A stretch of 64,000 nucleotides of DNA from Limnohabitans sp. (lineage in GTDB: Bacteria; Pseudomonadota; Gammaproteobacteria; Burkholderiales; Burkholderiaceae_C), in the NCBI RefSeq assembly GCF_030158565.1, contig NZ_JAOASQ010000057.1, positions 55,143 through 119,142 of the forward strand. The letters are read 5' to 3'. Of this stretch, positions 19,874 through 22,024 are shown in pieces. The position numbers were made by a program, and so were the translations under genes. Every line of letters begins with the position of its first letter. The stretch's first letter is position 1. A model generated the notes under the pieces. That model was not told the origin of the DNA and did not search any database. It worked only from the letters and a program-made list of their open reading frames with translations.

Positions 19874-21796
19874 TCAGATCACCTGCAAGCTGCCGGGCAC
19901 AATGCGCGCGCCGAAATCCCGCACCATGGTCTGCACCAGCGGATCGTTTTCAATCAATTCCTGAGCGGCCACCATCTTGGCGGCAGCAGCGACAGCCAAG
20001 CGCTTGGCTGGACAGTCGAGCACAGGACCGAGCTCGATTTGCAAGCGCACTTGACCATGCCCTGCTGCGGCCAAAGCCATTTGCAAGCGTTCACGGCTGG
20101 CCGGGTGGTTCAAGGATTCACGCTCAATGCGCAGCATCCACTGGTCAACATCACGCGCCACCAGTTGCGACTGCAAAGCCAATTCGCGCACCAGTGCTGT
20201 GATGGCTTCTTGCGCCAACAAGCCCTGCACCACGCCAAACCAGACATCGCCTTCTGCGGTGGTCTGCAAGGGTGTGGTGGGCGCAGTCTTGGGCACATCC
20301 ACACGCACAGAGTCAGAGGCTTCACGCACAGGCAAAGAACGCAAACCCGACTCGACTGGCACAGACGGAGGCAAGGACGCCACAAACGCATCTGCGGCAT
20401 CGTCGCCGAAATAATCGGAGGCGTCAGGCAGATCCTCCCAAGGTGGCGGCTCAGACACCGGCGCCATTGGAGGCGCTGCCGAAGGCGCAGCACTGGGCGC
20501 AATCGCTGCTTGTGACGCTGCTTGTGACGCTGCTTGTGACGCGGATGGTGGAGCTGGTGGAGACTGCGGGGCTGGTGCTGGCCTGGGCGCGACCACCGCA
20601 GGCGAAGGCGCTAAAGATGGCTGCGCAGGTGTGGCCGGGACTTCAGTTACTGGGCTACGGCTGATTCGCGGACTTTTTTTTTCAGCCGATCCTGCTGTTG
20701 GTTTGAACGCCAACAAGCGCAGCAAAACCATGGTCAAAGCAGCATACTCATCAGGCGCCAAACCCAACTCGGGACGCCCATGCAGGCACAAGCTGTAAAG
20801 CAGCTGTGTTTCCTCTGCGGGCATGGCGTGGGCCAAATCGGCCAAACCCTGGGTATCGGGATCATCGCCGTCTTGCGCCATGCCTGGCACCATCTGCATC
20901 ACGGCCATGCGTTGCAACAGCATCGCCATGTCTTCCAGCGTGGCCGCAGCAGATACACCTTGCAGACGCAAAGCATTGACCTGCCCGACCACGGTCGCAC
21001 CATCGCCTTCGGCCAAAGCACCGATGAGCTGCAACACATGGGTGCGGTCCACACTGCCCAGCATTTGACGCACGCCCGCTTCTTGCAGTTGGCCGTTGCC
21101 GAAAGCGATGGCCTGATCGGTCAAGCTCAAGGCATCACGCATCGAACCCCGTGCGGCCCGAGACAACAAGCGAAGTGCTTGCGGTTCAGCACTCAATTGT
21201 TCGGTGGCCAGCACGCGTGTCAGGTGTTCAAAAACGGTCTCTGGCGCCATCGGACGCAGATTGAACTGCAGGCAACGCGAGAGCACCGTGACGGGCACCT
21301 TTTGCGGATCGGTCGTTGCCAAGACAAATTTCAGATATTCAGGGGGCTCTTCCAGCGTCTTCAACATCGCATTGAAAGCGGTGTTGGTGAGCATGTGCAC
21401 TTCGTCGATCATGAAGACCTTGAAACGCCCCTGCACAGGCTTGTAAACCGCTTGCTCCAGCAGGCTTTGCACCTCGTCAACGCCGCGATTGGACGCGGCA
21501 TCCAGCTCGGTGTAATCGACAAAACGACCGGCATCGATGTCACGGCAAGCCTGGCAAACGCCACACGGCTCAGCGGTGATGCCGCCTTGCCCGTCTGCAC
21601 CTTGGCAATTGAGCGATTTGGCCAAGATCCGGGACACCGTGGTCTTGCCCACGCCCCGCGTGCCCGTGAACAAATACGCATGGTGCAAACGCTGTTGCAC
21701 CAAGGCATTGGTCAAGGCCTGAACCACGTGCTCCTGCCCCACCATTTCGGTGAAATTGCGAGGGCGGTATTTGCGCGCGAGAACAAGGTAAGACAT
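19874..21796 (-). CDS. dnaX: DNA polymerase III subunit gamma/tau
   Basis: MSYLVLARKYRPRNFTEMVGQEHVVQALTNAL...GTRGVGKTTVSRILAKSLNC; Pro/Ala-rich linker; tau C-terminal domain. Confidence 0.97.
   Translation of the reverse strand: MSYLVLARKYRPRNFTEMVGQEHVVQALTNALVQQRLHHAYLFTGTRGVGKTTVSRILAKSLNCQGADGQGGITAEPCGVCQACRDIDAGRFVDYTELDAASNRGVDEVQSLLEQAVYKPVQGRFKVFMIDEVHMLTNTAFNAMLKTLEEPPEYLKFVLATTDPQKVPVTVLSRCLQFNLRPMAPETVFEHLTRVLATEQLSAEPQALRLLSRAARGSMRDALSLTDQAIAFGNGQLQEAGVRQMLGSVDRTHVLQLIGALAEGDGATVVGQVNALRLQGVSAAATLEDMAMLLQRMAVMQMVPGMAQDGDDPDTQGLADLAHAMPAEETQLLYSLCLHGRPELGLAPDEYAALTMVLLRLLAFKPTAGSAEKKSPRISRSPVTEVPATPAQPSLAPSPAVVAPRPAPAPQSPPAPPSASQAASQAASQAAIAPSAAPSAAPPMAPVSEPPPWEDLPDASDYFGDDAADAFVASLPPSVPVESGLRSLPVREASDSVRVDVPKTAPTTPLQTTAEGDVWFGVVQGLLAQEAITALVRELALQSQLVARDVDQWMLRIERESLNHPASRERLQMALAAAGHGQVRLQIELGPVLDCPAKRLAVAAAAKMVAAQELIENDPLVQTMVRDFGARIVPGSLQVI
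20505..20540. repeat. Three perfect tandem copies of a 12-bp unit (GCTGCTTGTGAC) inside dnaX
   Basis: gctgcttgtgac x3; encodes repeated AASQ in the linker. Confidence 0.9.
20655..20692 (-). promoter_or_regulatory. Candidate dnaX slippage/frameshift site (SD-like AGGA, A9 run, downstream stop in the shifted frame)
   Basis: Coding strand CAGGATCGGCTGAAAAAAAAAGTCCGCGAATCAGCCGTAG; A9 maps to 20674-20682. Confidence 0.75.
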
Positions 21797-21925: not shown

Positions 21926-22024
21926 GCGACGGGCCTTCCCGCATGGTGAAGCGGCCAACCGGGTCAGGTGGGGAACCAAGCAGCCCTAACTGTGGAGCCA
22001 GTGCCGGGGTCAAGGCTCGTCAAC
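21926..22024 (+). ncRNA. ffs: Signal recognition particle RNA, small bacterial type (4.5S)
   Basis: GGGTCAGGTGGGGAACCAAGCAGCCCTAACTGTGGAGCCAGTGCCGGGG matches the SRP domain-IV core; GACGGGCCTT pairs with AAGGCTCGTC; divergent from dnaX; TACAAT at 21914. Confidence 0.92.

Follow-up and report, generated by a model that had tools for sequence, protein, structure and literature searches.

The dnaX gene in the 64-kb window (the whole stretch of DNA analysed here, part of a 3.05-Mb draft genome, G000) encodes full-length tau and contains nine consecutive A's. The initial annotation proposed that slippage or frameshifting on this run yields a second, gamma-like clamp-loader subunit. We asked whether the run and the stops around it behave as a selected signal in related genomes and, if so, whether RNA polymerase or the ribosome is the likelier agent.

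The A9 run and the alternative frames of dnaX

The dnaX coding sequence (21796..19874, minus strand; P0001) is an open frame of 640 aa with Pfam DnaX domains, and its product aligns to E. coli tau with 407 bits. Domains I–III (AAA+ ATPase, lid and collar) occupy approximately residues 1–363 (20708..21796, minus strand) and are matched by PF13177 (residues 20–183, AAA+ module), PF22608 (189–235, lid) and PF12169 (238–363, domain III); the alignment with E. coli gamma (1jr3) covers residues 1–377. Domain V, the region that binds Pol III alpha, is matched by PF12170 at residues 512–632 (19901..20263, minus strand). The A9 run is located directly behind domain III at 20674..20682 on the minus strand, in codons 372–375 of 640, where the zero frame reads GAA AAA AAA A(GT). 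In the −1 frame, entered by the gain of one A in the mRNA or by a −1 ribosomal shift, the run is followed by K S A N Q P and a UAG stop (20655..20657, minus strand), which would give a product of about 380 aa ending in EKKKSANQP. In the +1 frame, entered by the loss of one A or the gain of two, it is followed by V R E S A V A Q and a UAA stop (20647..20649, minus strand), for a product of about 382 aa ending in EKKVRESAVAQ. Both alternative frames are closed within nine codons, and the run, its frame, the two near stops and the predicted length of about 380 aa were all confirmed as first annotated. The putative gamma-like product of 380–382 aa (20655..21796, minus strand), deduced from the run and the two stops, would retain domains I–III and lack domain V.

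Downstream of dnaX on the same strand are ebfC/ybaB (19834–19511) and then recR (19485–18895). A small SRP RNA gene (21928–22024, plus strand; Rfam RF00169, 60 bits) is the divergent neighbor of dnaX, and the tau linker carries a short tandem repeat at 20500–20545, three copies of GACGCTGCTTGT coding for SQAASQAASQAA.

Taken alone, the A9 run is unremarkable within 64 kb, as the window contains a single A9/T9 and 0.99 are expected in shuffles. The 3.05-Mb genome has seven runs of A9 or longer on either strand, and those other than the dnaX run are mostly intergenic or at gene ends. The only other such run well inside a likely gene is an A10 in a yaaA-like gene (AVKKKITQP; L094, around position 1500; C34 of the same genome), which is probably incidental.

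Conservation and selection at the site

Within the genus, 90 genomes were sampled and 85 dnaX genes were readable across the site. All 85 share a run of precisely nine A's and its phase, always in the context (G/C)AA AAA AAA A, with GAA or CAA as the preceding codon and AGT, AGC or ACT as the codon that holds the last A. The surrounding linker is variable: the distance from the LLAFKP sequence on the collar domain side to the run ranges from 16 to 55 nt, and the flanking codons differ. An apparent frame break in one dnaX gene (G039) was rejected as recoding and traced to an N-filled assembly gap accompanied by repeated sequence.

A family sample of 151 genomes from 141 genera (about one per genus) provided 128 readable loci outside the genus, comprising 80 with A9, one with A10, one with A8, three with A_AAA_AAG and 43 with none of these. 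When the genomes were ranked by identity of residues 1–372 to the window protein, A9 or A10 was found in 73 of the 75 at 80% identity or above and in 8 of the 53 below; judged by these genomes, the site therefore characterizes a single large clade and becomes scarce outside it. A further 80 named Comamonadaceae-type loci, collected with DnaX of Acidovorax sp. MR-S7 as the query and partly from genomes that overlap the other samples, all carry the run (A9 in 77, A10 in 3); they include Acidovorax, Diaphorobacter, Extensimonas, Comamonas, Giesbergeria, Variovorax, Ramlibacter, Rhodoferax and Pseudorhodoferax. On this evidence the genus of the window belongs to Comamonadaceae and is likely to be Limnohabitans. 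The loci in these sets are related by descent, and the counts and proportions given here and below are not independent events or trials. Read in that light, the comparative evidence nevertheless makes the run far more than a product of chance. The cut-off always falls just after the end of domain III, at an offset of 7–121 nt and mostly 7–55 nt.

The residues E/Q-K-K are conserved in the A9 loci, as they would be if selection maintained an E-K-K-(T/S) protein motif and the A-run were incidental. We consider this explanation scarcely credible given the codons used. AAA accounts for 25–48% of Lys codons and GAA for 36–47% of Glu codons in these genes (25% and 36%, respectively, in the best-matching family genes). 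In LLAFKP, only a few codons upstream, the Lys codon is AAG in 55 and AAA in 12 of the family A9/A10 loci. GAG or AAG was never seen in the first three codons of the run, although these synonymous codons are preferred elsewhere, and a protein motif cannot explain such a pattern. Nor would a motif account for the conservation of both stops or for a choice of leucine codon that builds a stop (see below). By these comparisons, a constraint on the protein only is close to excluded.

The two stops were compared with codon shuffles of the downstream linker. A −1 stop is present within 10 codons in 96–100% of A9/A10 loci and in 26–35% of shuffles, and lies 3–10 codons downstream in nearly all loci. 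A +1 stop is present within 8 codons in 93–100% of these loci and in 15–18% of shuffles. Both stops fall within 10 codons in 91% of the genus, 94% of the family and 100% of the named loci, against 5–8% of shuffles. In the family and named sets the +1 stop is usually the first codon after the run (86% and 92.5%, respectively; shuffle mean 2%, maximum 9%), whereas in the genus of the window it more often lies at codon 2 or 8. The codon choice is particularly telling where a Leu follows the run-end codon: its codon and the following base together spell a +1 stop in 70/70 family and 72/73 named loci, whereas other leucines of the same genes do so in 11% and 14% of cases, and the rare CTA and TTA leucine codons are present only where UAA or UAG results. 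Both near stops are, on this comparative evidence, selected. One further preference concerns the codon that closes the run: ACT serves as the Thr codon at the run end in 47 of 81 family loci, compared with about 3% of Thr codons in the best-matching family genes, and its T is unnecessary for either stop.

The likely route to gamma

The alignment of related dnaX genes, which had been proposed as a check on the annotated gamma-like product, thus strongly supported the proposal, with conservation of the run and of its phase, and of a near stop in each alternative frame. That slippage occurs, how much gamma it yields and what this gamma does are inferred from sequence; production of gamma by slippage of some kind is very probable. 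Programmed transcriptional slippage on the A9 run is probably the main route. According to this mechanism, RNA polymerase would generate dnaX mRNAs with 8, 9, 10 or more A's at the run. Messages in which the run has nine A's, or differs from nine by a multiple of three, would encode the 640-aa tau, and all remaining messages would direct the ribosome to a stop a few codons on in one of the other two frames, giving a gamma of 380–382 aa. Such a gamma would consist of domains I–III and a short tail, and would be able to assemble into a clamp loader but not to bind polymerase alpha.

Programmed −1 ribosomal frameshifting at A_AAA_AAA in the style of E. coli dnaX, with gamma made from a uniform mRNA, would also account for the near −1 stop found 3–10 codons downstream in nearly all loci. 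The heptamer sits in the zero frame and ribosomes may contribute, 40% frameshifting was obtained in E. coli with an A9 cassette taken from a different gene (PMC3711429), and A_AAA_AAG followed by a nearby −1 stop occurs in some family members. However, the codon at the site is AAA, whereas AAG is more shift-prone (PMC5009743), and ribosomal frameshifting gives no reason for a run of nine over seven. It also leaves the strongly selected +1 stop unexplained: a −1 ribosomal shift needs only a −1 stop, while polymerase slippage needs both, since it places messages in both other frames. The four family loci with shorter runs, which provide a small contrast within the data, retained the near −1 stop but have their +1 stops at 38, 7 and 40 codons (L131, L227 and L266, all A_AAA_AAG) and at 36 codons (L241, A8). 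For comparison, an A11 run in tssM1 of enterobacteria causes about 20–25% frame change by transcriptional slippage (PMC4256274).

The stimulators expected for ribosomal frameshifting were not conserved either. The SD-like AGGA upstream of the run and the flanking CGGCTGA/TCAGCCG arms are present in the window as first annotated, but neither held up as a conserved element in the SD pairing and folding comparisons. No conserved SD-like stimulator was found in the family and named loci, for which mean anti-SD pairing was compared with that at control positions; the means were close to control (−3.0 and −2.3 kcal/mol for the family, −3.1 and −2.4 kcal/mol for the named loci). This comparison covers these two sets, the genus control mean having been spoiled by a bad value. 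A complementary flanking arm was detected in 3 of 85 genus sequences, and no conserved downstream stem-loop emerged from folding against codon shuffles, with mean z values of −0.04, −0.69 and −0.36 that are weak at best. Transcriptional slippage is favored by three features together: selection for the +1 stop, a run length of nine instead of seven, and the lack of a conserved SD or stem-loop. We regard ribosomal frameshifting as unlikely to be the main source of gamma at these loci.

Alternatively, no useful gamma might be made, and slippage could serve to lower tau output or to cause polarity on ebfC and recR, both of which are downstream of dnaX on the same strand. Prematurely terminated messages can cause polarity. 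This explanation is very improbable in our estimation, as the cut always comes just after domain III, where a functional gamma needs it; that position supports the slippage product being a working gamma.

Relation to known dnaX systems

A system of this kind is already known from Thermus thermophilus dnaX, in which the passages on Thermus in PMC1088944, PMC5009743 and PMC4320859 (citing Larsen et al., 2000) describe transcriptional slippage on an A9 run, with UGA stops that lie 2 and 16 codons past the run in the two other frames and produce two gamma forms. The dnaX gene studied here resembles it in having a single tau ORF, a linker with a nine-A run, a stop close by in each non-zero frame and a short product predicted to keep the clamp-loader domains. 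Thermus-type slippage is characterized by mRNAs of differing A-run length and by gamma and tau both made at about 1:1. The gene studied here, for which slippage is predicted, differs in belonging to a distant, mesophilic lineage and in a +1 stop that in most loci immediately follows as the first codon behind the run. Like E. coli dnaX, it has an A-rich slippery sequence within the linker, followed closely by a −1 stop that would yield gamma. It differs in having A9 instead of A6G, so that the run reads A_AAA_AAA followed by AGT rather than A_AAA_AAG, in its selected +1 stop, in the absence of a conserved SD and stem-loop, and in the position of the site, which is nearer to domain III by about 56 codons. 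The two-ORF dnaX genes of Chlorobi and others similarly contain a poly-A run of about 7–10, but their zero frame stops close to the run and they require a frame change to make tau (PMC3711429), whereas the 640-aa tau here is encoded in the zero frame.

Among family members without A9, A_AAA_AAG was found in L131, L227 and L266 only, each with a near −1 stop. These three loci have a G-rich SD-like sequence (GGAGG, GGGGGG and AGGAG, respectively) about 14–15 nt upstream and a GTGCCG element in common, and are candidates for an E. coli-type frameshift site in relatives. A broader reading, which we put forward tentatively and at slightly less than even chances, is that the A9/two-stop cassette has been selected across about 80 sampled genera and that relatives have switched between polymerase slippage, where A9 comes with two near stops, and −1 frameshifting by the ribosome, where A_AAA_AAG comes with a near −1 stop only, such that gamma would be conserved while the level of decoding changed.

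We found no paper in the open-access text on dnaX slippage in Comamonadaceae, Limnohabitans or Acidovorax, and the clade, the codon-scale two-stop design and the apparent switch to E. coli-type heptamers were likewise not found in the open-access literature. What gamma does is a long-standing matter of dispute (PMC5009743), and a review states that most bacteria beyond enterobacteria and Thermus are without a dnaX frameshift signature and possibly do not produce gamma (PMC3290774). In a family that is both large and culturable and in which such a signature is strongly selected, the general usefulness of gamma becomes directly testable, and its members supply many naturally varying versions of a slippage site. 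The test based on leucine codons, in turn, offers a sequence-only means of separating transcriptional slippage from −1 ribosomal frameshifting.

Outside the family, a search for A9 beside an LLRxLAF pattern returned three order and zero class genomes; these counts were not used, since the pattern overlooks TTG as a leucine codon and, of 11 known positives, retrieved only about 3. Scattered A9/A10 runs were observed in the dnaX linker of three loci from the order (L149, L166 and L168) and two from the class (L185 and L199), all in the same phase and in the context (G/C)AA AAA AAA A, some of them with a near −1 stop only. Independent origins of these runs are possible. L149 and L168 combine A9 with an immediate −1 stop only, so that A9 is not always accompanied by two stops, and the mechanism in these two loci may therefore differ.
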